From Actinomycetes bacterium (lineage in GTDB: Bacteria; Actinomycetota; Acidimicrobiia; Acidimicrobiales; Palsa-688), in assembly GCA_021808425.1 (NCBI GenBank), contig JAKBBS010000018.1, positions 1 through 29,822 of the forward strand: a DNA stretch of 29,822 bases, given 5' to 3'. The position numbers were made by a program, and so were the translations under genes. A model generated the notes under the pieces. That model saw only the letters and a list, made by a program, of their open reading frames with translations, ran no database searches and was not told the origin of the DNA. The stretch's first letter is position 1. Every line of letters begins with the position of its first letter. Shown here piece after piece: positions 186 through 16,189 of the stretch.

Positions 186-2513
186 TCAGACGCGCGCCAT
201 GTTGACGAACCGGGTGAAGTGATCCAGGAAGGCGAGCTGTATCTTGCCCGTCGGGCCGTTTCGGTGTTTGGCGATAATCACTTCGGCTGTTCCCTTGTCC
301 TGCGACTCAGGGTTGTAAACCTCGTCGCGATAAAGGAACATGACGACGTCGGCATCCTGCTCCAATGACCCTGACTCGCGAAGGTCGGCAAGGACAGGCC
401 GTTTGTCTGCACGCGCCTCGAGCTGGCGTGAAAGCTGCGAAAGTGCGACAACCGGGACTTCGAGCTCGCGGGCGAGTATCTTCAGCCCGCGGCTGATCGA
501 GGAGACTTCAAGTTGGCGGTTCTCGTAGGAGCCGCCGGACATCAGCTGCAGGTAGTCGACAATTATGAGCCCGAGGCCGCCCTGGCGCGCTTTGAGGCGC
601 CGCGCCTTAGCCCGGATCTCCATGACAGTCGTGTTCGGGTTGTCGTCGATGAAGAGTGGTGCGTCGCCGAGCCGGCCGACGGCCGCACTTATCTTCGGCC
701 AGTCAGGCTCGTTCAGCTTCCCGTTGCGCATCCGATTGGCGTCCACACGCGACTCCGACACGAGCAGCCTATTGGTTATCTCGTCCCTGCCCATCTCCAA
801 GGAGAAGACCAAGGTAGGTACGCGCGCCTCGACCGCGGCGTGAGCCGCAATACCGAGCGCAAACGACGTGTTGTGCACGATCATGTCGTCGGCAACAAAG
901 TTGTGGGTTCCTGCAACGCTGAGGTCGTAGACCTGCTCCGACCCGTCAGCTACGATGGCTACGATCTCGTCCCAGTACACGTCTCCGTCCAAAGAGCCGG
1001 GACCGACCAGCTCGACCTCCCATCGAGGTTCGCTCCGATCGGATCCTCGCGACCCCCGCAGGGTCACCCTGGAAAGCAGCGAGAGTCGAAGAAGCAGGTG
1101 CGCTACGTCGCCAGCAGCCCGACGCGAGAAGCTCCGAAAGACGACGACCTCCTGGCTCGGATTCGACCCACCGCTCAGCGCCTCGCCTGCCGGTGGTCCC
1201 ACCACCCGATCCGCCAGCTCCGACAGGAAGGTCCTGAGTTGCACAGCGCCCAAACCAAACGCACTTTCAGGCAACCCTAGATCTGAAGTACTCCCTTCGA
1301 GTCTGGCCCACCTTGACACTTCGCTTGCCAACTCGACAGGGTCACTGACAGTGCCACCGTTAGGATCACAGGCGCCTTCGGGCGTCGGAAGTGTCGCTGG
1401 AACTGCTATCTCGACGCCCGGAGCGAGATCCGCCAACTGGCGCCAACCTGATCGGGTGAGAAAAGGGTGGCTGGCAGTGGTCCGGATCCGCCTCCCGAGC
1501 CTCGTCCTAACCTTGAACACCGGCTTGAGACCGTCGTTGACGAATGCTCCTACGCGAGCGTCGCCAAGCGTCCGATTCGGAGCCAGACTGACCACCACGA
1601 CGGGTTCGCAATCGTCGACGGCGCTGCGAACGAAGCACCCGTCTCCCATCGGGGCGCCGGCCAACCCGGGCACGCCGACTCTCCCGAAGGCGGCGGCGCC
1701 AGCGCGCGCCGGGACCGCTTCGCGACGTTCGCATATCTCTTCGATACTTCTAAGCGAGCCGGTGCTCGGGTCGAGGATCCGAGTGTCCCGACTGACACAT
1801 TTACCCATAGCTGGACGCGCTCCTACGATTACCAACGCGTTTGGTTGAAGCCCGAAGAGCCGCTCGTCAAGGTCGATGAAACCCGTAGGCACCCCGGTGA
1901 TCGACTCACCCCGGTCGTAAAGGTGTTCTAGACGGTCCATGCTTGCAGCGAGCAGTTCGCTGAGCGGCCGGAGGCTGTCGGTCACACGCCGCTCTGCTAC
2001 GTCGAAGACGAGGCTCTCTGCCCTATCCATGGCAGCCACGACGTCGTCGGGAAGGCTGTAGCCCATCTCTGCGATCTCCCCGGCTACGGCTATCAGACGG
2101 CGCAGAAGGGCATGCTCCTCGACTATCCGGGCGTAGCGCGAGGCGTTAGTCGTGGCCGGAGTGTCGGCTTGCAGGGCAAGGAGGGCGGTGAGCCCGCCGG
2201 ACAGGTCGAGGATGCCGGCTCTCGCCAGTTCGTCCGCCACCGTGACAGGGTCGGCCGGCTCACCCGAACTGTAGAGGGCACTGACCGCGTCGAAGATATG
2301 AGCATGAGCGGGCTTGTAGAAGTCCTCGGAGCTGCAGGTCTCCATGGCTGCTGCGATTGCGTCGCGAGATAGCAGCATCGCCCCGAGCAGAGATCTTTCG
2401 GCGTCGAGGTTGTGTGGCGGGATCCGCGAGCCGGTCGGCGCTGCATGGGGTGCCCCAGCGGATGCTTGACTGGCCGAAGGTTTGCGGCGTGCTGAATCTA
2501 GGTACTGAACCAT
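186..2513 (-). CDS. dnaB: Replicative DNA helicase DnaB, with an in-frame intein
   Basis: Hexameric helicase that unwinds the chromosome at the replication fork. The precursor is 775 residues. The N-terminal domain covers about 30-180 (starting IPPHNLDAERSLLGAML) and the RecA-like motor about 200 onward. The Walker A loop GARPAMGK (231-238) is split after Lys238 by an intein (239-548); the C-extein resumes TSFALGIAAHAA. Walker B is IIVDYLQL (650-657), and KHRNGPTG (749-756) carries the arginine finger. Removing the intein leaves 465 residues, a normal DnaB length, and restores GARPAMGKTS, so activity depends on splicing. The ATG at 2513 has only a weak Shine-Dalgarno sequence. The gene is divergent from dnaA across an origin-like spacer. 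Confidence 0.96.
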   Translation of the reverse strand: MVQYLDSARRKPSASQASAGAPHAAPTGSRIPPHNLDAERSLLGAMLLSRDAIAAAMETCSSEDFYKPAHAHIFDAVSALYSSGEPADPVTVADELARAGILDLSGGLTALLALQADTPATTNASRYARIVEEHALLRRLIAVAGEIAEMGYSLPDDVVAAMDRAESLVFDVAERRVTDSLRPLSELLAASMDRLEHLYDRGESITGVPTGFIDLDERLFGLQPNALVIVGARPAMGKCVSRDTRILDPSTGSLRSIEEICERREAVPARAGAAAFGRVGVPGLAGAPMGDGCFVRSAVDDCEPVVVVSLAPNRTLGDARVGAFVNDGLKPVFKVRTRLGRRIRTTASHPFLTRSGWRQLADLAPGVEIAVPATLPTPEGACDPNGGTVSDPVELASEVSRWARLEGSTSDLGLPESAFGLGAVQLRTFLSELADRVVGPPAGEALSGGSNPSQEVVVFRSFSRRAAGDVAHLLLRLSLLSRVTLRGSRGSDRSEPRWEVELVGPGSLDGDVYWDEIVAIVADGSEQVYDLSVAGTHNFVADDMIVHNTSFALGIAAHAAVEARVPTLVFSLEMGRDEITNRLLVSESRVDANRMRNGKLNEPDWPKISAAVGRLGDAPLFIDDNPNTTVMEIRAKARRLKARQGGLGLIIVDYLQLMSGGSYENRQLEVSSISRGLKILARELEVPVVALSQLSRQLEARADKRPVLADLRESGSLEQDADVVMFLYRDEVYNPESQDKGTAEVIIAKHRNGPTGKIQLAFLDHFTRFVNMARV
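870..1799 (-). mobile_element. DnaB intein in the Walker A loop, endonuclease apparently decayed
   Basis: Encodes residues 239-548 of the DnaB precursor (310 aa). It starts with the nucleophile Cys239 in block A (CVSRDTRILD). Block B is TTASHPFL with the TxxH pair Thr346/His349. It ends with block F/G (THNFVADDMIVHN), with penultimate His547 and Asn548, and the +1 extein residue is Thr549. All core splicing residues are present. The middle 170 residues keep echoes of a LAGLIDADG enzyme: a helix at about 419-439 (QLRTFLSELADRVVG) and the block at about 465-485 (GDVAHLLLRLSLLSRV). No acidic LAGLIDADG motif survives and the first one seems absent, so homing is probably lost while splicing is kept. 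The P-loop position matches a known mycobacterial DnaB intein site. Confidence 0.93.
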
Positions 2514-2897: not shown

Positions 2898-4319
2898 GTG
2901 AACGAAGCGGTTCAACTATGGACGGAATGTGCTGAGGTAATCAGACGGGAAGTCAAGGACGCCGTATGGAAGACCTGGTTCGAGGGTCTCGAACCTGTCA
3001 GCGTCGACACGAGCAGCATCACGGTTTCAGCTCCGAGCTCGATCGTTCGCGACCGCCTCGACGAGAGGTTCGCCGCACTCATCGAGAACGCTCTCACGAC
3101 GGTCTGCAAAAGAAACCTCCACATCAACATCGTGGTCCGCAAGTCGCCGGAGGCCGATATGTCGCTTTTTGACGTCGCGGAGCTCGAGGTGAAACCGGAC
3201 ACGAAGGCGCCCCTCGACCACGCCAACGCCGGCCCACCTCTTCCGGCGTCCCCTCTGCCAGCTTCCGCCGCGGCAACGTCGCCGACGACGTCGAGCTCGC
3301 TCAACAAGCGCTACACCTTCGACGCTTTCGTGATCGGCTCGTCCAACCGTTTCGCCCACGCCGCCGCTCAGCGCGTAGCGGAGAGCCCTGCATCGAGCTA
3401 CAACCCGCTCTTCATCTACGGGGACTCCGGCCTCGGCAAGACCCACCTGCTGCACGCAATCGGCCATTACGTGATCGAGAATTTCCAAGGCAAAAGGGTC
3501 CGCTACGTCTCGACCGAGACCTTCATGAACGACTTCGTCGACGCCATCCGAAACAACACCCAAATGACCTTCAAACGGGCATACCGGGAATGCGACGTCC
3601 TGCTCGTTGACGACATCCAGTTCATGGAAGGCAAGGAGTCACTCCAGGAGGAGTTTTTCCACACCTTCAACTGGCTCTACGAGAGCTCCAAGCAGATCGT
3701 CTTGTCAAGCGACCGGCACCCTAGATCGATCGCGACGCTAGAAGACCGCTTGAGAAGCCGCTTCGAGTGGGGCCTGACCACCGACGTGCAGCCCCCCGAA
3801 CTCGAGACTCGGCTGGCTATCCTTCGCAAGAAAGCCGAGAGCGAGCGGATCCCGATCCCCGCTGAGGTCCTCGAGCTCATTGCGACGAACGTGCGCGACA
3901 ACATCCGTGAGCTCGAAGGGGCCCTCATAAGAGTGTCGGCTTACTCGAGTCTCAACCGTCAAGCTCCAACTCTCGAGACGGCGACGAACATACTCTCCGA
4001 CCTTCTCGAGGGAAACAGGCCCCGCCAGATCACCCCCAAACTCATCCTCGAGGAGACCTCGACGGCGTTCGGCTTCAGCGTAGAGGACATCTGCGGACCG
4101 AGCCGGAGGCGACCGCTCGTGAGAGCTCGTCAGATAAGCATGTACGTCTTTCGGGAGCTGACGGACTTCTCCTACCCGGCGATCGCCCGCGAGTTCGGCG
4201 GGCGCGACCACACCACGGTTATACACGCCGTCGACAAGGTGGCCAGTCTCATGAAGGAGAGCCGGCTCGTCTTCGATCAGGTCACCGACCTGATACAAAG
4301 CGTGAAAGGCGGAAGCTGA
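2898..4319 (+). CDS. dnaA: Chromosomal replication initiator DnaA
   Basis: AAA+ ATPase that binds DnaA boxes, melts the origin and helps load DnaB. It has 473 residues. Domain I is about 1-90, followed by a short Pro/Ala/Ser-rich domain II linker (about 100-135). The AAA+ core runs about 138-370 with Walker [10 protein letters not shown] (175-183), Walker B LLVDDIQF (235-242) and the box VII region [12 protein letters not shown] (281-292). Domain IV carries the DNA-recognition signature [14 protein letters not shown] (431-444). The GTG start at 2898 is preceded by GGAGGGG. It heads the plus-strand run toward dnaN and is flanked on both sides by DnaA boxes, so autoregulation is likely. Confidence 0.98.
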
Positions 4320-4559
4320 CCTGTGGGTACGTTCGGGGACGCGGTGTGTCGGAGCCGTGTAGTTCATAGGGAAAAAGTTGCCTTCGTCCACAACGGTCCT
4401 CCTCGCAGCTCCGAACCTGTGGAACCATGGGGATGACAGGCCAGAATAAAAAGGGTCTCGGAGCAGCGCAGACATACAGTTGTCCACAATCCACAGGGCC
4501 TACTACTGACCCTGCCCAAATTATCTATTTAGAAGAACAGAAGCAGGAAGGCAGGCGCG
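4320..4559. other. dnaA-dnaN spacer: right part of a probable oriC
   Basis: This 240-bp spacer contains a perfect TTGTCCACA (4480-4488) overlapped by CAATCCACA (4487-4495), a near-perfect TCGTCCACA (4384-4392), and weaker TGTGGGTAC (4322-4330) and TGTGGAACC (4418-4426). An A/T-only-but-one stretch AAATTATCTATTTA (4518-4531) lies just beyond the box pair and is the best candidate for a DNA-unwinding element in this GC-rich region. AGGAAGG at 4545-4551 is the dnaN ribosome-binding site. The dnaA-dnaN interval is the usual oriC position in actinobacteria. No gene was seen in it. Confidence 0.72.
4480..4488 (+). promoter_or_regulatory. DnaA box (TTGTCCACA) in the dnaA-dnaN spacer
   Basis: Perfect actinobacterial DnaA box on the plus strand, overlapped by the weaker CAATCCACA at 4487-4495 and followed about 30 bp later by the AT-rich stretch at 4518-4531. 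This box-plus-AT-tract order resembles a melting module. Confidence 0.75.
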
Positions 4560-5657
4560 GTGAAGTTCAGGTGTGAAAGAGACGTCTTTTTGGACACGGT
4601 CAGCAGCGCCGGGCGCGCCACGACAGCGCGCGGGTCGATGCCGATCCTCGGTGGTATACGCATGACAGTCGAGCAGGACCATTTGACCGTGACAGGCACC
4701 GACATCGATCTCACCATCACCGTCGCTTCGACTGTCAACGGCGTCGAGGACGGTGTCTCTGTCGCCCCGGCCCGGTTGATAACCGACATCGTGCGGTCGT
4801 TGGAACCTGGTGCCGTGACAGTCGAAGCAGAAGACGACGAACTGCATTTGACGTCGGGCAGAAGCAGGTTCTCTGTCAGGACGCATCAAGCGTCAGACTT
4901 TCCCCGCATTCCGGCTCCGCCGCTCGACGCTGCCGTAACCGGCATTGCAGGGTTGAGCGATGCCCTGCGCCAGGTAACGAGGGCGGCGTCGACGGAAGAA
5001 ACCCGTCCTATCCTGACGGGCGTTTTGATCGCAGCGGAAGGCGAGGGACTCCGCCTTGTCGCGACGGACTCCTACAGGCTGGCGATGCGTGACCTTCCTG
5101 GGATATCGGTTCTTCGCGAGGGTCAGAGAGTCCTGATTCCTTCCCGGGCGCTAAACGAGGTCCAGCGTCTCCTTTCGTCGTCGAGCGACGTCGTCAACCT
5201 TCGCCTCGGAGACCACGAAGCCACCTTCGAGGTGGGCCAGGTGACCCTCACGACTAGGTTGATAGAAGGCGACTTTCCGAACTACCGGGCGTTGATACCC
5301 TCCGACTACCCGAACAGGCTTGTAGTAGGCAGAGAGGCGCTGCTCGACGCGATCAAGCGGGTGAAGCTTCTCGCCCGTGATGCTACGACGCCGGTGCGGA
5401 TAGCTTTGCGGCCGACGTCGATCGAGCTGACAGTGGTGACCAACGACTGGGGTGCAGCGGTTGAGGAGGTCGACGCGAAATACGAGGGGTCCGAGATGAC
5501 CGTCGCATTCAACCCTACTTACCTGATCGAAGGCGTCGAGGTGGTCGGCGGGGACGAGATCGCTCTGGACACGCTTGATGCGCTCAAGCCGGCAACCCTG
5601 CGCCCCGTCGGAAACGAGGACTACCTCTACCTTCTGATGCCCGTTCGAATCCCGTGA
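4560..5657 (+). CDS. dnaN: DNA polymerase III beta subunit (sliding clamp)
   Basis: Ring-shaped processivity clamp that holds the replicative polymerase on DNA and recruits repair factors. At 365 residues it has the usual bacterial length of three repeated domains. It opens MKFRCERDVFLDTVSSAGRA, keeps the family phrase TEETRPILTGVL at the start of the middle domain, and ends YLYLLMPVRIP, where the last residues shape the partner-binding pocket. The GTG start at 4560 has AGGAAGG eight bases upstream. It lies between the oriC-like spacer and recF, the standard order. Confidence 0.98.
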   Translation: MKFRCERDVFLDTVSSAGRATTARGSMPILGGIRMTVEQDHLTVTGTDIDLTITVASTVNGVEDGVSVAPARLITDIVRSLEPGAVTVEAEDDELHLTSGRSRFSVRTHQASDFPRIPAPPLDAAVTGIAGLSDALRQVTRAASTEETRPILTGVLIAAEGEGLRLVATDSYRLAMRDLPGISVLREGQRVLIPSRALNEVQRLLSSSSDVVNLRLGDHEATFEVGQVTLTTRLIEGDFPNYRALIPSDYPNRLVVGREALLDAIKRVKLLARDATTPVRIALRPTSIELTVVTNDWGAAVEEVDAKYEGSEMTVAFNPTYLIEGVEVVGGDEIALDTLDALKPATLRPVGNEDYLYLLMPVRIP

Positions 5658-5755
5658 CGACTCGGAATGCAAAACGCACGGTATTTTTTCGGAGCTCCAG
5701 ATACCGCGATACTCGTCGCGTAGCAGTCCGGGGAGCGATGTGAAGGAGATCGGGG

Positions 5756-6874
5756 TTGTTCGTCGAGCATCTTTCTCTGGTCGACTTTCGTAGCTATCTC
5801 GAAGCCGAGTTGTCCCCCGCTCCGGTAGGGACAACCGTTATCAGAGGTTCTAACGGGTCTGGGAAGACGAACTTGATCGAGGCGATCGGATACCTTGCCA
5901 CCGCCAAGTCGATTCGTGGCGCGCCAACGGACGCACTGCTTCGAATCGGCGCTCTTTCCGCAGTGCTGAGAGGCCGGATCGTCAACGCTGAGAGGGCACG
6001 CCGGGTTCACGTAGACGCGGAGCTCAAGAGCGTTGGCAGAGACGTGATCAAGATGGGAGGTCAGCCAATCCGGCGAGTCGGCGATCTTTCGGACGGACTT
6101 CTGGTGACGGTCTTTGCTCCAGACGACCTCGAGCTCGTCAAAGGGGGTCCAGGCTTCCGGCGCAGCTACATCGACGATCTGGCCGTTTCGTTGCTCGGAC
6201 GTAGGGCATCCACCTTCGGCGAACTCGAGCGGGTCATCAAGCAACGTAACTCGCTACTGCGGTCCGTGTTCGCGAGTGGCTGGAGGCCCGGAAGGGCGTT
6301 GCCGGCGGATGTAGCGTCAACCCTCGACGTCTGGGATCACAAGCTGAGCGAGGTGGGCAGCGTGATAGCGACGATAAGGCATGACCTCACAGAGCAGTTG
6401 GACCCGATAGTCGGGCGTACCTACAGGCTTCTCGGAGGGACGAGCGACGCTACATCGGAGTCCACGGTTACGGTTTCTTACTGTCCCAGTTGGAGCGGGG
6501 CACTGGGCGAAGCTCTTGTAGCGTGTAGGGACGAAGACCTCCGCCGCGGTGTCACCACGATAGGCCCCCAGAGGGATGACCTGAACTTGAGAATTTCGGC
6601 TATGCCAGCCAGAACCCACGCCTCCCAGGGTGAGCAACGCACCGCCGCCCTCGCTCTGCGCCTCGCCGGGCACCTGCTGATCACGGAGTCGAGGGGCACT
6701 TCACCTGTCCTTTTGTTGGACGACGTGTTCTCCGAGCTCGACGACGCGAGGTCGTCTGCGCTGATGGAGATGCTGCCGCCTGGCCAGACGATACTGACGA
6801 CGGCTGGAAGCATTCCTAGCGGGATGACACCCGCCGCTACGGTCATTGCGAGGGAAGGGAGGCTGGAGTCATGA
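5756..6874 (+). CDS. recF: DNA replication and repair protein RecF
   Basis: SMC-like ATPase that binds gapped DNA and helps load RecA at stalled forks. It has 372 residues: Walker A GSNGSGKTN (31-39), an ABC-type signature region around SQGEQRTAALALRLA, and Walker B/D-loop LLLDDVFSELDD near the C terminus. The start is TTG at 5756; AAGGAG at 5743-5748 with seven-base spacing decides it. The 98-bp gap from dnaN holds no obvious promoter. The stop overlaps the next start by 4 bp (ATGA), implying translational coupling with dciA. Confidence 0.97.
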   Translation: MFVEHLSLVDFRSYLEAELSPAPVGTTVIRGSNGSGKTNLIEAIGYLATAKSIRGAPTDALLRIGALSAVLRGRIVNAERARRVHVDAELKSVGRDVIKMGGQPIRRVGDLSDGLLVTVFAPDDLELVKGGPGFRRSYIDDLAVSLLGRRASTFGELERVIKQRNSLLRSVFASGWRPGRALPADVASTLDVWDHKLSEVGSVIATIRHDLTEQLDPIVGRTYRLLGGTSDATSESTVTVSYCPSWSGALGEALVACRDEDLRRGVTTIGPQRDDLNLRISAMPARTHASQGEQRTAALALRLAGHLLITESRGTSPVLLLDDVFSELDDARSSALMEMLPPGQTILTTAGSIPSGMTPAATVIAREGRLES

Positions 6875-7248
6875 GCACATGGCGGTCGTCGCGGACCCCC
6901 AGGTCACAGCAGGAACCGGTGCCTGTGGCCGACTCGCTCACGCGCATCACCCGGCGGTGGTCGATGGCGGACCCTTCGGCCCTCGCCGCTGTTTTTTCGC
7001 ACTGGGAGAGCCTTGTCGGTGCGGAGATCTCCGACCACGCGAAACCCCGGTCGCTTCACGGCGGTGTGCTCGTCCTCGAGGTCGACCACCCCGCTTGGGC
7101 CTCGCAGCTGCGCTTCATGGCCGACGAGCTCGCCAGGACGATCAACTCCGCAACCGAACCGGGCCTGGTCGAGTCGGTGAGGGTGTTCGTCCGGCGAGAG
7201 GAGCGAGACGGAAGGCTACCCCGGCGCAGCTCTGACGCACCCCTCTGA
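6871..7248 (+). CDS. dciA: DciA-like DUF721 protein, probable helicase-loading factor
   Basis: 125 residues matching the DUF721/DciA family, which in bacteria without DnaC or DnaI helps load DnaB. The family core is clear: HWESLVGAEISDHAKPRSL, then GGVLVLEVDHPAWASQLRFM. The N-terminal 25 residues are basic and probably disordered. It overlaps recF by 4 bp and sits in the recF-dciA-gyrB order typical of actinobacteria. No dnaC/dnaI-type loader was seen here, which fits the role. Family membership is secure; the loading role is transferred from studied relatives. Confidence 0.9.
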   Translation: MSTWRSSRTPRSQQEPVPVADSLTRITRRWSMADPSALAAVFSHWESLVGAEISDHAKPRSLHGGVLVLEVDHPAWASQLRFMADELARTINSATEPGLVESVRVFVRREERDGRLPRRSSDAPL

Positions 7249-7254
7249 TAGGAT
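7249..7254 (+). promoter_or_regulatory. Possible -10 element upstream of gyrB
   Basis: TAGGAT at 7249-7254, preceded by TGA, resembles an actinobacterial TANNNT -10 and would leave a leader of about 75 bases before gyrB. No -35 was recognised at the right distance. It may give gyrBA its own promoter, as supercoiling-controlled gyrase genes often have. Confidence 0.25.
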
Positions 7255-7280
7255 GTAAGCGCAGTATTCAGGGCTGCTGA

Positions 7281-9290
<2,010 letters not shown>

Positions 9291-9291
9291 C

Positions 9292-11754
9292 GTGACTGAC
9301 ACGCCCCCCATCCCTCCTTCAGACGACGAACAACCAAGCGGCATCGAGCCGATCGAGATCCAGGAGGAGATGGAACGCTCCTTCCTCGACTATGCGATGT
9401 CGGTCATCGTCTCGCGTGCCCTGCCTGATGTCCGTGACGGCCTGAAACCGGTGCACCGCCGGATTCTCTTCGACATGCACGTGCAGGGATACCGCCCTGA
9501 CCGGCCTCACGTGAAGTGCGCGAAGGTGACCGGCGACACGATGAGCCGTTTCCATCCGCACGGAAACACTGCGATCTACGACGCCCTCGCACGCATGGCT
9601 CAACCGTTCAGCCTGCGCCATCCGCTGATCGCTTTCCACGGTAACTACGGATCGGCCGACTTCCCGCCTGCCGCCGAACGCTACACAGAGAGCCGCCTGT
9701 CGCCGCTGGCAATGCACATGATCGAAGGTCTCGACGAGGAGACAGTCGACATGGTCCGCAACTACACAAACGAGGAAGACGAACCGTCCGTCCTTCCGTC
9801 GCGGTTCCCAAACCTTCTCGTCAACGGCAGCCAGGGGATCGCAGTCGGAATGGCGACGAACATCCCGCCCCACAACCTGGGCGAGGTTATCGACGCAACT
9901 ATCCACCTGATAGACAATCCCGACGCTACCGCCGACGAGCTGATGCGCTTCGTCAAGGGCCCAGATTTTCCTACCGGGGCCCTCATCCTCGGCCGTCAGG
10001 GGATCATGGACGCCTACCGGACCGGCAGAGGCTCGATCAAGATGCGGGCGAAGGCGGAGATCGTCGAGGGACGCACAGGCGACGAGATCGTCATCAGCGA
10101 ACTTCCCTACCAGGCGAGCCCGAAGGGAATCCTGGAGAAGATCGCCGAGCTCGTCAACGCCAAGGAGCTCGATGGCATCCGCGACATCCGCGACCTGAGC
10201 GCCGGCGACGACACGAAACTCGTCGTCTACCTCAAGCGCGACGCGGCAGCCAACGTCGTGCTCAACAATCTTTACAAGCACACGCCTCTGCAGACTTCCT
10301 TCGGCGTCAACATGGTCGCTCTGGTAGACGGGGTTCCCCGCACCCTGAACCTCGTCGGTGCGCTGAGCGCCTACGTCGCGCACCAGGTCGACGTGATAAC
10401 CCGCCGTTCCCAGTACCGGCTGCGCAAGGCGAGGGACCGAGCCCACATCGTCGAGGGTTTGATCAAAGCCCTCGACATGATCGACGCGATCATCGCTGCG
10501 ATCCGCGCGTCGGCGGACAGGCCGGCCGCGCGAACGGCCCTCATGGGAACGCCGTTCGAGTTCAGCGAGGTCCAGTCCGAGCACATTTTGGACATGTCCC
10601 TCTCGACACTCACCCGGCTCGGCCGCGCGCGCCTCGACGAGGAGCTGGCTCGCCTCCGTGAGACGATGGCGGAGCTGGAGGCGATCCTCGGCGACGAGGG
10701 CCGGCTCCGGGATGTTATCAAGACCGAGATGACGGCGATCCGCGATCAATTCGCTGACGCCCGGCGCGCCCAGATAACCCTCGACGACGGGGACATGTCC
10801 GCCGAGGACCTGATCGACGACGAGGAGCTCGTCGTCACGATGACCCGTGCCGGGTACGTCAAGGCGGTGCCAGCGTCGCAGTTCCGCACACAGGGCCGAG
10901 GCGGTCGGGGTGTCCAAGGAGCCAGGCTCAAAGACGAGGACCTCGTGATACGGGTCATTCACACGACAGCCCACGCGTACCTGCTGTTCTTCTCGAACCT
11001 GGGCAAGGTTTACCGGCTCCGGGCTTTCGAGGTTCCGGTCAAGGAGCGCACGGCGAGAGGCACGGCGATAGTCAACCTGCTGCCGCTCGACGCCGGTGAG
11101 CGGATCCAGACGCTCATCGACACCCGCGAGTTTCCGTCCGACCAGTACCTGCTTTTCGCCACGAAACATGGCCAGGTGAAAAAGACGACATTCTCCGAGT
11201 ACGACAAGTCGCGCAGAGAGGGTTTCATCGCGATCAACCTCCGCGAAGGAGACGAGCTCGTGGGGGTGATCGTGACGAGCGGCAGCGACGACATCTTCAT
11301 GGTGTCGAGAGCGGGGATGGCGATCCGATTCGACGAAGGAGAGGTCCGCTCGATGGGCCGCGACGCTGCAGGCGTCCGGGGTATGGCGCTTCGCGGCGGC
11401 GACGAAGTCGTTTCGATAGACCCTGCACGCGACGACGTTTCGATACTGATCGTGACTGAGGCGGGCTTCGGAAAGCGAACCCAGCTCCAGCATTTCAACC
11501 GTCAGGGCCGCGGCGGTGTCGGTGTAAGAGGTATCCGCCTGACGGCGCAGCGAGGCCAGGTGGTGGCGGCGTTCATGATCTCACTCGACGACGAGATACT
11601 GGTAACGTCGTCGGCCGGGGTTATGGTGAGGATGGCCGCACGCGAGATCTCGAGCCAAGGCCGGGACGCCACCGGGGTGCGTATAGTCACCTTGGACTCC
11701 GGCCAGGCGGTGGCATCTGTGGCACCGGTTCTTGCCGTGGAAGACGCCGGCTGA
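9292..11754 (+). CDS. gyrA: DNA gyrase subunit A
   Basis: DNA-cleaving subunit of gyrase. It has 820 residues and a GTG start one base after the gyrB stop. The catalytic Tyr131 lies in [14 protein letters not shown] (127-140). The quinolone-pocket helix reads [19 protein letters not shown]; the positions equal to E. coli 82, 83 and 87 are Asn92, Thr93 and Asp97, so the usual Asp at 82 is Asn here. The C-terminal wrapping domain contains a GyrA box, [10 protein letters not shown], and further blades ([24 protein letters not shown]). It overlaps the next gene by one base (TGATG). Confidence 0.98.
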
Positions 11755-12407
11755 TGGACGAACCCGCCGCAGGCCTGGGCGGCAATGGCCCCTCGTCAGG
11801 CGACGGCGGTCGCGGCCAGGTGCCCGGTGTGCGCTCGGCGGGGCCGGCAGGATCCGGCACCGGTTGGGGTTCCCCGGTGCCTGCCGGCTACGGATCGCTC
11901 AGGACGGGTTCGTCGGGCTTCGCCAACACCGACAGGGAGACGGCGCCGTCCGGCCGTTCCATGCGACCGGCGCTTTCGCCGCGTCGCGAGCCGCGGGCGG
12001 AGCTTCGAAGCGAACCTGAAGCCCCGACGACTCTGATGTCGCGTCGCGGTCCTGTCGAGGTTCGCCGCACTACGCTGAGCCACATCAGTATCGTCACGGT
12101 GATCAAAGTTTCGGTTGTGCTCTATCTGGTCTTTCTTGCGGTGATCGTTGTAGCGGCGATGCTTTTGTGGGTGGTCGCTGACCAGACCGGCGTCGTCACC
12201 TCTATCGACAAGTCCGTGCGGAGCCTGTTCAGCTTGAAGGCGTTCGCGCTTCATGCGTCGGCTGTTGCGAAATACACGGCGCTGGCGGGCGGCGTCCTCG
12301 GCTTGGCAGGCACACTCGCCAATATTCTGGCGGCGCTCATTTACAACTTGATCGCCGACGTCGTCGGCGGGATACGGCTGAGGACCGAAAGCACCGTTCT
12401 CGAATGA
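11754..12407 (+). CDS. DUF3566 membrane protein following gyrA
   Basis: 217 residues. The first 100 are rich in Gly, Pro, Ser and Arg and look disordered. The DUF3566 core follows (about 103-215) with two hydrophobic segments at about 112-141 and 174-200 and the link DQTGVVTSIDKSV between them. This family sits directly downstream of gyrA in many actinobacteria. Its role is not established; cell-envelope or chromosome-membrane functions have been considered. The start ATG overlaps the gyrA stop by one base, so translation is probably coupled. The end is 13 bp from csrA, suggesting one transcript. Confidence 0.85.
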   Translation: MDEPAAGLGGNGPSSGDGGRGQVPGVRSAGPAGSGTGWGSPVPAGYGSLRTGSSGFANTDRETAPSGRSMRPALSPRREPRAELRSEPEAPTTLMSRRGPVEVRRTTLSHISIVTVIKVSVVLYLVFLAVIVVAAMLLWVVADQTGVVTSIDKSVRSLFSLKAFALHASAVAKYTALAGGVLGLAGTLANILAALIYNLIADVVGGIRLRTESTVLE

Positions 12408-12420
12408 ACCGCGAGGCGAA

Positions 12421-12864
12421 GTGCTAGTTCTCAGTCGAAGGCCTGACTCGTCGATCATCGTCGGCCACGACATAACCGTCACCGTCGAATACGTGGCAGG
12501 CGACGACGTCTGCCTACAGGTGAAGGGACCCGAAGACCTGGAGGTTCGCCGCGTCGAGGAGGTAGAGGTGGCGGAGATCCTCTCGAAACGGGGCCGGGCT
12601 TGGGACGCGTCGAGCATGTACGTGCTGTCGAAGCGGTCGAGGCCGGCGCTGTTGCTCAACGGCGAGATCCTCGTCGCCGTCCAATCGGTGAGCAACGAGT
12701 CGGTGCGGATCGGAATCGAAGCACCGCCGCACGTTCTCATATACCGCGAAGAGGTCTACCGCCAGATGCAGGACGCCAACAGGGGCGCCCTCAACGACCC
12801 GTCAGGCGACCTCGTAGGCTTGTCCGCTCTCAGACGCCAGAATCCTCCCGCTCCGATTCCCTGA
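12421..12864 (+). CDS. csrA: Tandem CsrA protein (two fused CsrA domains)
   Basis: CsrA is normally a 55-75 residue RNA-binding protein that acts as a swapped homodimer on GGA motifs in mRNA leaders. This protein has 147 residues and two copies. Domain 1 (1-54) begins MLVLSRRPDSSIIVGHDITV and has Arg44 in EVRRVEE. Domain 2 (66-121) begins MYVLSKRSRPALLLNGEI, with VRIGIEAPPHV and Arg109 in YREEVYRQM at the position equal to E. coli Arg44. A Pro-ending tail covers 122-147. Both halves keep the RNA-contact arginine, so one chain might fold as a pseudo-dimer. The GTG start has GAGG at 12413-12416. It sits 13 bp behind the gyrase/DUF3566 genes and tail to tail with fliW. The domain reading is direct; the folding idea is inference. 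Confidence 0.88.
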   Translation: MLVLSRRPDSSIIVGHDITVTVEYVAGDDVCLQVKGPEDLEVRRVEEVEVAEILSKRGRAWDASSMYVLSKRSRPALLLNGEILVAVQSVSNESVRIGIEAPPHVLIYREEVYRQMQDANRGALNDPSGDLVGLSALRRQNPPAPIP

Positions 12865-12867
12865 CAG

Positions 12868-13329
12868 TCACACCGGCAGCGCCTCGGCGACCCGATACGA
12901 CGAGCGGTACTGGACGACCTGTGCTGCAGCGCCGGTGAAGCGGTTGACGACTATCGGTCCGAGCAGGTTCGCGGACGGCGTGGCCGGCGGACGCGGTACC
13001 GTAACCATCACAATCGTTACAACGTCGTCGGATGATCGCACTCCGAGTGCTTCTTGGTCCTCCTCGTCGATCTCGATGCTGTAGTCGGGATAGAGCAGGC
13101 CGGGCGCGACGACGGTGAATCCGACCCCCGGCTGGTCTGTCGATTTCAGCCTCGCGAACGGCAGGAAATCCTCGGCGAGGACGGACAGCTCGAAGTCCCG
13201 GACTTCGGGGAAGCCTGGCAGCCCGGACGCGAACGTCAGCTTCGACAAACCGGCGAGCCCGGGGACCATTGGTCCGCTCGCAGAGTCGTAGCTCATCTCG
13301 ATCACACTATCTACAACAGTCGCTGGCAA
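12868..13329 (-). CDS. fliW: Flagellar assembly factor FliW, CsrA antagonist
   Basis: FliW binds flagellin and CsrA, releasing or holding CsrA so that flagellin translation follows secretion. The protein has 153 residues. The family phrases are FASGLPGFPEVRDFEL (33-48), a mid-domain VVAPGLLYPDYSIEI, and SANLLGPIVVN near 117-127. The TTG start at 13329 is favoured by GGAG with seven-base spacing; ATG at residue 12 is an alternative with a poor ribosome site. It is last in the flagellar operon, 13 bp after flgL, and its stop lies 3 bp from that of csrA on the other strand. In Bacillus the order flgL-fliW-csrA is the same but all in one direction. Confidence 0.93.
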   Translation of the reverse strand: MPATVVDSVIEMSYDSASGPMVPGLAGLSKLTFASGLPGFPEVRDFELSVLAEDFLPFARLKSTDQPGVGFTVVAPGLLYPDYSIEIDEEDQEALGVRSSDDVVTIVMVTVPRPPATPSANLLGPIVVNRFTGAAAQVVQYRSSYRVAEALPV

Positions 13330-13342
13330 AGGTCTTCTCCGG

Positions 13343-14269
13343 TTACAGGTACGATACGAGGGAATGCAGCTCTATTTGAGAGGTCGCCCATAGGCCGGCC
13401 TGGTAGGAGTTCTGCGCTTGCGTCAACGCTGTCGTGGCCTGCGCAACGTTGACGCTGTTCTGCGTTGAGATCTGAGTCTGCAGCGCCGTCTGCACGCTTG
13501 TCGCCTGCGTGGCATACGTTTGCACACTTTGATAAGCGGCTCCTAGCGAAGCGGCCTGGTTCGTCACGTTCTGGATGGCCGAGTCGAGCGCAGCGAGGTC
13601 GGTGGTGGTGGCGGTGTTGATGGACGCGGGTGTGCCGGTACTGACGTCGGCTATCAGTTTCGAGAGCACGCCGGTTGGTCCGAGCAGGCCGGTGCTCCCG
13701 GTTCCGAACACGGACGGCCCTGTCGCCGAGACGCTCACCGAAACGCCGGGGCCCACGGTACGGGTTGGTGCGGTCCCGCCGCCCACGTAGTTGCCGTTCG
13801 AGTCGTACGCGGTCGTGACGTTACCGGTTCCGGAGAAGATCGCCTGGTTCCCGTAGGTGGTGTTGGCAAGGGACAGGACCTGCTGCATTGTGGCATTGAG
13901 CGCCGCGGCGGTCCCAGCGACCGCCCCCTGCGGGTTGGCGAGGGAGTTGCCCGACAAGGACATGACCGACTGCTTCGCTGACTGCAAGGTGCTTATGAGC
14001 GAGTTCAACGTCGAGGCGCCGAGACCGAGCCATGCGGTGGCGTCCGAAGCGTTCGTCGAGTACTGCTGCGCTCGCGCAAGGCTTGAACTTGACGCAAGGA
14101 GCGACCCTGCCAACGTCGGATTATCCGACGGCTGGTTCACCAGGTTCCCAGTCGAAAGCTGCGCTTCGAGCGTTGCCTGTTGGGCCTGGTTGGCGTCGAG
14201 ACTTGACAGTAGCTGCGAGGCTATGACGTTCGGCGTGTAGGAGATACCGGTGATCACGCTGGAAGACAC
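13343..14269 (-). CDS. flgL: Flagellar hook-associated protein 3 (FlgL)
   Basis: Junction protein joining hook and flagellin filament. From the GTG at 14269 it has 308 residues. It carries the flagellin-like N-terminal helix with QLSTGNLVNQPSDNPTLAGS and the C-terminal helix VAQATTALTQAQNSYQAGL. The middle is Gly/Ser/Thr-rich and exported proteins of this type lack a signal peptide. AGGAG at 14275-14279, five bases upstream, supports this start; the frame is open to 14335 but that start would overlap flgK and lacks a good ribosome site. A short open frame with a perfect Shine-Dalgarno overlaps the start. It lies 52 bp after flgK. Confidence 0.93.
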   Translation of the reverse strand: MSSSVITGISYTPNVIASQLLSSLDANQAQQATLEAQLSTGNLVNQPSDNPTLAGSLLASSSSLARAQQYSTNASDATAWLGLGASTLNSLISTLQSAKQSVMSLSGNSLANPQGAVAGTAAALNATMQQVLSLANTTYGNQAIFSGTGNVTTAYDSNGNYVGGGTAPTRTVGPGVSVSVSATGPSVFGTGSTGLLGPTGVLSKLIADVSTGTPASINTATTTDLAALDSAIQNVTNQAASLGAAYQSVQTYATQATSVQTALQTQISTQNSVNVAQATTALTQAQNSYQAGLWATSQIELHSLVSYL

Positions 14270-14310
14270 GGCTGCTCCTCTCCGGCCAAGTGATTTGTAG
14301 GATCTGACAT
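14254..14310 (-). CDS. Possible 18-codon leader ORF overlapping the flgL start
   Basis: ATG at 14310 follows AAGGAG (14318-14323) with ideal seven-base spacing, the best ribosome site in the neighbourhood. It encodes MSDPTNHLAGEEQPCLPA and stops at 14254-14256, just inside flgL. Because the frame spans the flgL start codon, its translation could couple to or compete with flgL. It has no recognisable homology and could be chance. The spacer carries several GGA triplets, the element CsrA binds. Confidence 0.35.
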   Translation of the reverse strand: MSDPTNHLAGEEQPCLPA

Positions 14311-14321
14311 CGGGTTTCTCC

Positions 14322-15668
14322 TTAGACCGCCGCAAGTAGGGACTGAAGCGCCGTGTCGACCGTGGTAACGACCTTTGCGGCCGCCTGGTAGGTCGACTGG
14401 AAGTTCATCAGGTCCACGAGCGCAGCATTTTGATTCACGCCTGTCACGGCCTGGAGATTCTGTTGGGCAGTGTTTGCTGTTGTCGTCTGCGACTGCACCT
14501 GGCTGTTGATCTCGCTTACTTGGGAGCCGACGTTGACAACCGCTGCCTGCCAGGCGGCGTCCGGGCCGTTCGAGGAGTTGTAAAGGTTGGCTAGCGCCTG
14601 CGCGTTCGAGCCGTCGTTGGTTGCCGCGGGCAGACTCGCGCTAGCCGAGGTGGCTATCAGCGCCGGGTTGGCCGCGACGGCGGGATTGACGGTGAGGCCC
14701 GCCGCGCCGGAACCGGTGAACAGGGGCGGACCTGCAGTGCCTGAAGAGGTGAAGCCGGCTGCGAGCTGGGTGTTGACCACGGTCGCCAAGTTGTTGGCGA
14801 CTGTGTCGACCTGCGACTGGTAGGACGGCAGGTACAAGTTGACCGCAGCGAGTAAGCCTGCCGCCGACCCGGACGCGGCGTTCAAAACGCTGTGGGTGCT
14901 TTGAGCTACGACCTGGGTGGACGAACCGGAGCCCTGCAGGGTGAGCGTGTCCGACCAGTTACCCTGAACGAGTGTGATGCCCCCGACGCTGACATCGATC
15001 GCGCCGGACGATCCCGTCCTCGACGTGGCGCCTATTTGTGACGAGAGTTGTGTCAAGATCTGGTTGCGCTGGTCGACCAAAGCGGACACCGACGAGCCGG
15101 TTGCACCTTGGGCCGTGACCTGTGAGTTGAGCGCCGCCACCTGGCTGAGCAGGGTGTTCGCCTGCGTAATCGTCCCTGCCAGCTGTGAGGAGGCGTTGGC
15201 TGTAACCGTGCTTATTTGACTTGACGCCTGTTGTAGATCGCTAACGACAACCTGGGCGGAGTCGACGACGCCCTGGCGGCCTGCTGAGCTGCTCGGATTC
15301 GCGGCCAGCTGATCCCACGACTGCCAGAAGGTCGACAGGTCGGGCCCTACCCCGGTAGTCGACGACGGGTTCCCGAACGCTAGCTGGGCCTGCTGAAGCA
15401 CCTGCTGGAGAGCTGTGCTCTGCGCTGCGTTGGCTGAAGTCTGTGCGGCGTTAGCGGCGAGGAGGCTGTCGCTGTTTTGAGTGACAGAACCAACGGTCGC
15501 GCCGCCGCCTATTCCGAGAGGATCACCGGATGCTATCGCCGAAATGTTGGCGGTCTCAGCGATGTAACCGGGGGTGTTTGTGTTCGAAAGGTTCTGAGCG
15601 ATGGTGTCCATCGCCGTCTGTGCAGCGTCGATGCCCGATGCGGCGATTGCCAGACCGAGATTACCCAT
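14322..15668 (-). CDS. flgK: Flagellar hook-associated protein 1 (FlgK)
   Basis: First hook-filament junction protein, exported through the flagellar type III system. It has 448 residues. The N-terminal rod/hook signature is AMDTIAQNLSNTNTPGY (19-35) and the C-terminal helix is ALVDLMNFQSTYQAAAKVV, with a Ser/Thr/Ala-rich central region. The length is typical. The ATG at 15668 lies 5 bp after the flgN stop with only a weak ribosome site, suggesting translation coupled to flgN. FlgN, encoded immediately upstream, is its expected export chaperone. Confidence 0.96.
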   Translation of the reverse strand: MGNLGLAIAASGIDAAQTAMDTIAQNLSNTNTPGYIAETANISAIASGDPLGIGGGATVGSVTQNSDSLLAANAAQTSANAAQSTALQQVLQQAQLAFGNPSSTTGVGPDLSTFWQSWDQLAANPSSSAGRQGVVDSAQVVVSDLQQASSQISTVTANASSQLAGTITQANTLLSQVAALNSQVTAQGATGSSVSALVDQRNQILTQLSSQIGATSRTGSSGAIDVSVGGITLVQGNWSDTLTLQGSGSSTQVVAQSTHSVLNAASGSAAGLLAAVNLYLPSYQSQVDTVANNLATVVNTQLAAGFTSSGTAGPPLFTGSGAAGLTVNPAVAANPALIATSASASLPAATNDGSNAQALANLYNSSNGPDAAWQAAVVNVGSQVSEINSQVQSQTTTANTAQQNLQAVTGVNQNAALVDLMNFQSTYQAAAKVVTTVDTALQSLLAAV

Positions 15669-15673
15669 GACCT

Positions 15674-16189
15674 CTAGGCCTTGAAGTCGTACGAGCGTAG
15701 GGCGCCCAGACCGTCCTGGCGGAATGCTCCGGACGCGTCGTAGGTCGGCTTCGCTCCGAGCAGCGCTAGGGCGTCGTTCGTTGCGGCAAGTCCGCTGGCG
15801 AGGAGCTGTCTGTTCTGGCGTGAGCAGCGCCGCACCTGGTCGAGGACGTTGCGGAGAGCCATTTGGCGCTGGCGGAGATGCTGGCCCGCAAGCTCGTCCT
15901 CAACGCGATCCGCAAGGTCGCTCAAAGTCGATCCTTGGGGCAGTTGGTGAGCGGCGTGGACTTTCCCTGCAGTGCCTTCACGCACATGTCCCACCCGGGT
16001 GAGCTCTCTTACCGCCTCTTCTACTTCGGAGGTGCACGCTGAAAGCCAGCGCTGCTCGCCCGCAGAGAGGATCAGGTGTTGTTCACGAAGCTTGAAGAGC
16101 AGCTGCTCGAGAGCACGCTGCTCCTGGTCCAAGCAGTTGAGTAGATCAGAGCAGTCGTCGTCTTGACCGTGCCTCGATTGCTCGTTCAA
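15674..16189 (-). CDS. flgN: FlgN-type export chaperone for FlgK and FlgL
   Basis: 171 residues, almost entirely alpha-helical, with heptad-like stretches such as LDQEQRALEQLLFKLREQHL near the N terminus and RQRQMALRNVLDQVRRCSRQN later. This fits the FlgN family, cytoplasmic chaperones that keep FlgK and FlgL unfolded for export. Sequence identity in this family is low, so position directly before flgK and flgL carries much of the call. The TTG start at 16189 is preceded by AGGAG with five-base spacing. It begins 24 bp after fliL. Confidence 0.8.
   Translation of the reverse strand: MNEQSRHGQDDDCSDLLNCLDQEQRALEQLLFKLREQHLILSAGEQRWLSACTSEVEEAVRELTRVGHVREGTAGKVHAAHQLPQGSTLSDLADRVEDELAGQHLRQRQMALRNVLDQVRRCSRQNRQLLASGLAATNDALALLGAKPTYDASGAFRQDGLGALRSYDFKA

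Follow-up and report, generated by a model that had tools for sequence, protein, structure and literature searches.

Described CsrA systems and a tandem csrA gene

In CsrA dimers, each RNA site combines one protomer's strand 1 with its partner's strand 5. The best-matching described systems are the FliW-type CsrA proteins of Bacillus subtilis, Campylobacter jejuni and Geobacillus thermodenitrificans (5DMB), which are homodimers of one-domain chains; their two RNA sites are equal, and they have two FliW sites. The subject here is a csrA gene with two such domains in tandem, found in contig JAKBBS010000018.1 of an Actinomycetes bacterium (assembly GCA_021808425.1); the whole stretch analysed, 29,822 nucleotides, is called the window. 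The tandem protein shares with the FliW-type proteins the CsrA domain, the Arg44 equivalent, the C-terminal extension with Asn55 and a flagellar locus adjacent to fliW. It differs from them in being one chain, with the FliW-contact Asn in half 2 only.

RNA is contacted in the CsrA family by leucines of strand 1, by the backbone of strand 5 and by the Arg44 equivalent; an Arg6–Glu46 salt bridge is intersubunit in the RsmA dimer (PMC3791407, excerpt). In B. subtilis and C. jejuni, FliW binding depends on Asn55 (PMC6529632, PMC7829508, excerpts). The B. subtilis system works at about 1 flagellin : 1 FliW : 1 CsrA dimer, and inhibition persists in a heterodimer that has a single FliW site (Oshiro et al. 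2019, PMC6529632, excerpt). This engineered CsrA-Hetero (wild type plus N55D) resembles the tandem in having one FliW-proficient and one FliW-blind half, but it is non-covalent, and as far as the excerpt describes them its halves differ by N55D and tags. RsmN/RsmF of Pseudomonas aeruginosa (4KJI, 4K59) is likewise a rerouted CsrA-family chain in which one chain yields one RNA site; unlike the two-domain tandem, it consists of a single domain in which an extra helix separates strands 2 and 3, and it still forms dimers (PMC3791407, excerpt).

No description of a tandem, fused, duplicated or two-domain CsrA was found among the open-access papers listed for these terms; one of them concerns the binding of csrA mRNA by CsrA. 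A survey of Pseudomonas CsrA (PMC7366521) contains none of the words tandem, fused and fusion, and the only open-access item joining CsrA with Acidimicrobi is a flagellar-evolution paper that names CsrA once, in a list of searched genes. An earlier note on this DNA, which knew of no description of the architecture, is thus borne out as far as this literature goes; the conserved tandem CsrA architecture is real, and it was not found in print.

The tandem is probably (at roughly 0.6) a covalent CsrA pseudo-dimer that has a single main RNA site and a single FliW site, one FliW being enough to release it. This mechanism is proposed because of the crossed conservation set out below, and draws further on analogy with B. 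subtilis. Half 1 and half 2 would pair intramolecularly, each in the role of one protomer of a CsrA dimer. The chain would offer its main RNA site (site A) beside a single FliW dock on the half-2 helix, with the second site (site B) weaker or structural. Bound to flagellar mRNA, e.g. that of flagellin, the tandem would repress translation, and one FliW molecule would release it, fixing the ratio of 1 FliW to 1 CsrA dimer known from B. subtilis. A second, longer tandem family would be further along in the loss of site B.

Two CsrA domains in one chain

The gene (12421–12864, + strand) starts with GTG and encodes a single chain of 147 amino acids. PF02599, the Pfam CsrA family, hits it over two stretches, and each half scored alone exceeds the Pfam cut-off of 27 bits (E 7.1e-12 for half 1 and 2.6e-14 for half 2; bit scores in Table 1), which confirms the two CsrA domains read from the translation earlier. 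Membership of the CsrA/RsmA family is clear from these domain matches. The motifs IIVGHD (residues 12–17) and LLLNGE (77–82), quoted in that reading, are both present in the translation. In register, the two halves are 24% identical (z 6.2 against shuffles), and BLASTP of one against the other gave no alignment; the duplication or fusion is therefore old.

A search for two-domain relatives, suggested by the earlier note, uncovered a conserved family, carried by a group of motile Actinobacteria. Among about 5.8 billion proteins, 59 hits were obtained from 142 candidates, 50 of them full-length tandems, and a profile search in which the 7999 best candidates were scored added at least nine more. 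The resulting short-tandem alignment has 60 rows (the window protein, P0002–P0051 and P0061–P0069); one-domain or half proteins (P0052–P0060 and P0070–P0091) were left out. The P0034 cluster is assigned to Acidimicrobiales by its source. An assembly artefact is very unlikely, because the 59 further full-length tandems (52–94% identical to the window protein) lie on separate contigs and the gene order is common to four more genomes.

Crossed conservation of the RNA sites and the FliW dock

Twelve positions of our choice (E. coli, i.e. Escherichia coli, numbering) were compared in both halves of the 60 tandems. Site A denotes half-1 strand 1 with half-2 strand 5, and site B denotes half-2 strand 1 with half-1 strand 5. 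In each of the 60 proteins, site A is canonical at all 12 positions. Site B falls short of full conservation at eight of the 12 (counts out of 60: Leu2 0, Arg6 53, Arg/Lys7 57, Ala36 5, Pro37 59, Val/Ile40 23, Arg44 56 and Glu46 28), and is kept throughout at Val/Ile3, Leu4, Ser/Thr5 and Val42; on these counts, site B of the short family is relaxed, not dead. Core positions are better conserved in half 1 than in half 2 (0.49 versus 0.80 bits), and half 2 is not simply the better-kept half.

Both arginines singled out in the earlier note are in the window protein, and across the family Arg109 is more constant (60/60) than Arg44. The note's suggestion of divergence between the halves at RNA and FliW contacts gains support from the conservation across the 60 tandems. 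The contrast it drew between LLLNGE and IIVGHD is not the informative one; informative are Asn120, which half 2 alone possesses, half-1 strand 5 and, in the long family, half-2 strand 1. Its picture of two complete, separate RNA-binding domains is not supported: an RNA site spans both halves, and one composite site is strict while the other is relaxed or further decayed.

The FliW contact is divided just as sharply. The Asn55 equivalent is Asn in half 2 of all 60 proteins and in half 1 of none, and the C-terminal extension of the FliW-controlled CsrA type is present. By analogy, the tandem looks like a natural version of the B. subtilis heterodimer with one FliW site. One short tandem outside the 60 (L071, from genome G307) has Ser for the FliW-contact Asn, the only exception met among short tandems.

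A long tandem family

Three loci of the same order in a different host family (G260, G511 and G495) encode tandems of about 190 amino acids. Long and short tandems are alike in their order, in having two CsrA-like halves, in the FliW-contact Asn of half 2 and in their usual convergence with fliW. The long form differs in its length, in an insert between strands 3 and 4 of each half (by reading of the alignment), in the loss of half-2 Arg6 and in its host family. The halves of L074, scored separately against PF02599, reach 25.8 bits for half 1, just below the cut-off, and 44.1 bits for half 2, above it. A search for this family, with 972 candidates, produced 20 hits, of which one was the query sequence itself; the members are L072, L073, L074 and P0092–P0111, and with P0092 dropped as identical to L074 the alignment holds 22 sequences. 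The long tandem occurs in 11 of the 35 genomes of its host family, including the diverged G580.

Strand 1 of half 1 reads LVLRRR in all 22. Strand 1 of half 2 has Arg6 in none, and half 2 keeps the equivalents of Ala36, Pro37, Val42, Arg44, Glu46 and Asn55 in all 22. Judged from this alignment, site B has clearly been lost on its strand-1 side; its loss on the strand-5 side is uncertain.

In L093 (genome G554), a single-domain CsrA from the host family of the short tandems, about 12 inserted residues separate strands 3 and 4.

Flagellin leaders

Leaders, taken as the 80 bases upstream of flagellin, were compared in 25 genomes and in 22 further single-CsrA genomes. The first set started from 30 genomes, of which 28 matched and 25 were used (G001, G574 and G580 were dropped for a partial or FlgL-like match), and its tallies were hand-counted from motif positions. 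The second also started from 30 with 28 matched; 22 were used, and six were dropped where the match was taken for FlgL.

ANGGA overlies the Shine-Dalgarno sequence (−20 to −6) in 32 of 35 single-CsrA leaders (13/13 and 19/22 in the two sets), in 2 of 3 short-tandem leaders and in 1 of 9 long-tandem leaders. The three single-CsrA leaders that lack it are L198 and two with doubtful starts (L179 and L200). Long-tandem leaders still have a plain GGA near the Shine-Dalgarno sequence, and one hairpin ANGGA near −37 is kept in eight of the nine. On glgC, the CsrA homodimer binds a hairpin site and a weaker Shine-Dalgarno site; of the known CsrA targets, at least one carries only one site (PMC7652899, excerpt). 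The leader pattern fits a CsrA with one RNA site and does not prove it.

In the ninth long-tandem leader, L164 (G260, a genome without a FliW match), the hairpin is kept and the loop GGA is lost. No flagellin gene was recognised by eye among the window open reading frames (ORFs) that were read.

Predicted fold and alternative readings

Crossed conservation makes the intramolecular pseudo-dimer, one of the arrangements raised in the earlier note, the most likely fold. In the structure prediction that the note proposed as a check, an AlphaFold2 (AF2) monomer model gives half 1 the CsrA fold at 0.9 Å and leaves strand 1 of half 2 as coil. As far as this model and the alignment of 60 tandems go, neither of the two results that the note would have counted as refuting was seen. 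An RsmN-type helix between strands 2 and 3 was found neither in the alignment of the two short-family halves nor in the AF2 model.

Several observations weigh against a pseudo-dimer with one main RNA site, and the first is what site B retains. In the short family it keeps Val42 in all 60 proteins, Arg44 in 56, Pro37 in 59 and half-2 Leu4 and Ser5 in all 60, and its position-6/46 charge pair is Arg or Lys with Glu or Asp in 60/60. Two of the three short-tandem flagellin leaders, from the near-identical G003 and G004, also carry two ANGGA motifs. Two-site RNA binding by the short tandem is possible on these grounds. They would suit a symmetric, bivalent pseudo-dimer in which both composite sites work with different RNA preferences and one chain bridges two GGA sites of an mRNA, as the ordinary dimer does; two different RNA sites in one pseudo-dimer were the idea of the earlier note. 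Such an arrangement is nevertheless unlikely, given that in no protein does site A depart from canonical letters at the 12 positions, that site B of the same proteins falls short at eight of them, and that the long family has lost half-2 Arg6 in 22 of 22.

The AF2 model adds a second difficulty: with half-2 strand 1 as coil, site B is left unformed. A monomer prediction of this kind is compatible with swapping between chains. Two tandems might dimerise, half 1 of one pairing with half 2 of the other, to give two strict sites per complex. Partners on different chains would explain the crossed conservation equally well, and the unpaired strand in the model points the same way; this exchange is judged quite unlikely.

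The remaining difficulties concern the FliW dock, the leaders and the long family. The closeness of the dock to site A is judged by chain order. No FliW match was found in the tandem genomes G307 and G260, and no flagellin match in G307, whose assembly may be incomplete. Since the long-tandem leaders are all from a single host family, their sparse Shine-Dalgarno ANGGA may represent one evolutionary event. Within the long family, site A has Arg at position 5 in 22/22, not the canonical Ser/Thr, and Val/Ile40 in 17/22. Residues 65–70 of long-family half 1 contain an Arg in 18 of 22 sequences, at one aligned place in at most 10; half-1 strand 5 is poorly alignable there, and the loss of Arg44 from this half is therefore alignment-dependent.

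A last alternative takes Met66 as an internal start, which would give ordinary single-domain CsrA homodimers and make half 1 a minor or regulatory extension. Met66 is present in 58 of the 60 tandems, and P0070 is recorded as a 79-residue protein of half 2 only. The other two of the 60 have His at 66, and a Met lies near the beginning of half 2 in only 1 of 22 long tandems. Long-family half 2, having no strand-1 Arg6, would form no canonical site alone. Purifying selection on half 1 is seen when the window protein is compared with its two nearest relatives (ratios of nonsynonymous to synonymous substitution, dN/dS, of 0.05 and 0.06, the second with saturated dS), and distant pairs are higher. 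Before the Met66 ATG of the window gene, the sole ribosome-site-like stretch, read by eye, is a GGGA 11–14 bases 5′ of it. An internal start is very improbable. The covalent pseudo-dimer proposed above is the reading retained below.

Distribution and origins

A scan of one genome per species gave four short-tandem loci, and G307 is a fifth genome. The tandem is the sole CsrA match in each of these five genomes, which come from possibly incomplete assemblies. Of 395 genomes sampled across the class, 91 had a CsrA match; the short tandem was found in G001 and G307. Phylum-wide, 52 of 396 genomes matched the tandem profile (E up to 1e-12, a threshold that would not necessarily reveal the long family), and G001 alone matched over both halves. 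Across both families, fliW is present in 14 of 16 tandem genomes. G056, of the same class, has 12 CsrA matches, mostly to profile positions 15–49 and spread over many contigs, which may represent a repeated element.

On a GyrB tree of 31 rows, short and long carriers fall in different parts, with single-CsrA genomes between them. A single clade of all tandem carriers is rejected. Two origins of tandem CsrA are the economical reading; the alternative is one old origin followed by losses, or transfer. Some single-domain relatives, e.g. P0072, combine the GHD motif of half 1 with the LAGLAGL tail of half 2, as would be expected of the pre-duplication form.

Gene order and features of the locus

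The window and loci L001–L004 have a common order: gyrB, gyrA, DUF3566 and tandem csrA, followed on the opposite strand by fliW, flgL, flgK and flgN (L004 begins within gyrB). Coordinates are given in Table 1.

Table 1. Features of the tandem csrA gene and its neighbours (window positions; PMC sources in excerpt)
Feature	Position	Strand	Evidence
DUF3566 protein, directly 5′ of csrA	11754..12407	+	58 bits; same place in L001–L004
Tandem CsrA, 147 amino acids	12421..12864	+	PF02599 over two stretches, 93.2 bits; family of 60 sequences
Half 1, residues 1–54, CsrA domain without FliW-contact Asn	12421..12582	+	45.5 bits alone; Asn at position 55 in 0/60
Half 1 strand 1, residues 2–7 (LVLSRR), one side of RNA site A	12424..12441	+	Residues 2–6 60/60; residue 7 Arg 59, Lys 1
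Arg44 of half 1 (site B)	12550..12552	+	56/60 in family
Linker, residues 55–65, including Trp61	12583..12615	+	Trp61 59/60
Half 2, residues 66–121, canonical CsrA domain	12616..12783	+	Residues 66–147 alone 53.4 bits
Half 2 strand 5 region, Ala101–Glu111 including Arg109, second side of RNA site A	12721..12753	+	Ala36, Pro37, Arg44 and Glu46 equivalents 60/60
Asn120, equivalent to FliW-contact Asn55 of B. subtilis and C. jejuni	12778..12780	+	Half 2 60/60; PMC6529632, PMC7829508
C-terminal tail of FliW-type CsrA	12784..12861	+	Invariant Leu131, Gly133, Leu134
fliW, convergent with tandem csrA	12868..13329	-	Pfam FliW 106.8 bits; same layout in L001–L004
flgL (name from domains and place)	13343..14335	-	Flagellin_N and Flagellin_C above cut-off; conserved neighbour
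flgK	14322..15668	-	FlgK_D1 152.3 bits
flgN	15674..16189	-	FlgN 56.6 bits

Orientation was counted at 94 CsrA loci from 93 genomes, plus the window. Fourteen of the 15 tandem loci with fliW in reach are convergent with it, the exception being G580; no fliW is in reach of tandem csrA at the G307 and G260 loci. Among 43 single csrA loci of the order or families that have fliW, 13 are convergent, 26 co-directional and 4 divergent, and seven more have no fliW. All 23 single loci sharing only the class are co-directional with fliW, with five more lacking it. Within the order, tandem and single loci differ in orientation with a Fisher p of 3e-5, which is only a lead as the genomes are related. The convergent singles G457, G444, G420, G462 and G454 branch outside the tandem groups, and co-directional singles lie nearer to or among them; which came first, convergence or tandem, is not settled by these positions. 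Where fliW and tandem csrA are convergent, as they mostly are, translational coupling between them is not possible.

Within 2898–12864 of the window, genes of an apparent replication origin (dnaA, dnaN, recF, gyrB and gyrA, named by eye) adjoin the flagellar cluster. An ORF translation at 186–2513 (- strand) contains what we take to be an in-frame intein, apparently in the P-loop of a replicative helicase that is presumably DnaB (CVSRDTRILD ... THNFVADDMIVHN).

Implications for CsrA regulation

Whether two RNA sites are necessary for CsrA, and why a single FliW suffices to silence a dimer, have so far been addressed with engineered heterodimers. The tandems present natural fused CsrA at two stages, one with a relaxed site (short) and one with a further decayed site (long). 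Each composite site can be mutated separately within a single chain, with no heterodimers required, and the fused proteins predict which flagellin leaders require one CsrA site and which require two. It is conceivable, and offered here as a tentative view, that in each of two lineages of one order CsrA, once a symmetric homodimer, became a covalent and asymmetric regulator carrying a single RNA site and a single FliW site. Such a change would hard-wire a ratio of 1 FliW : 1 CsrA dimer : 1 flagellin mRNA, and in one lineage the leader would have shed its second CsrA site.
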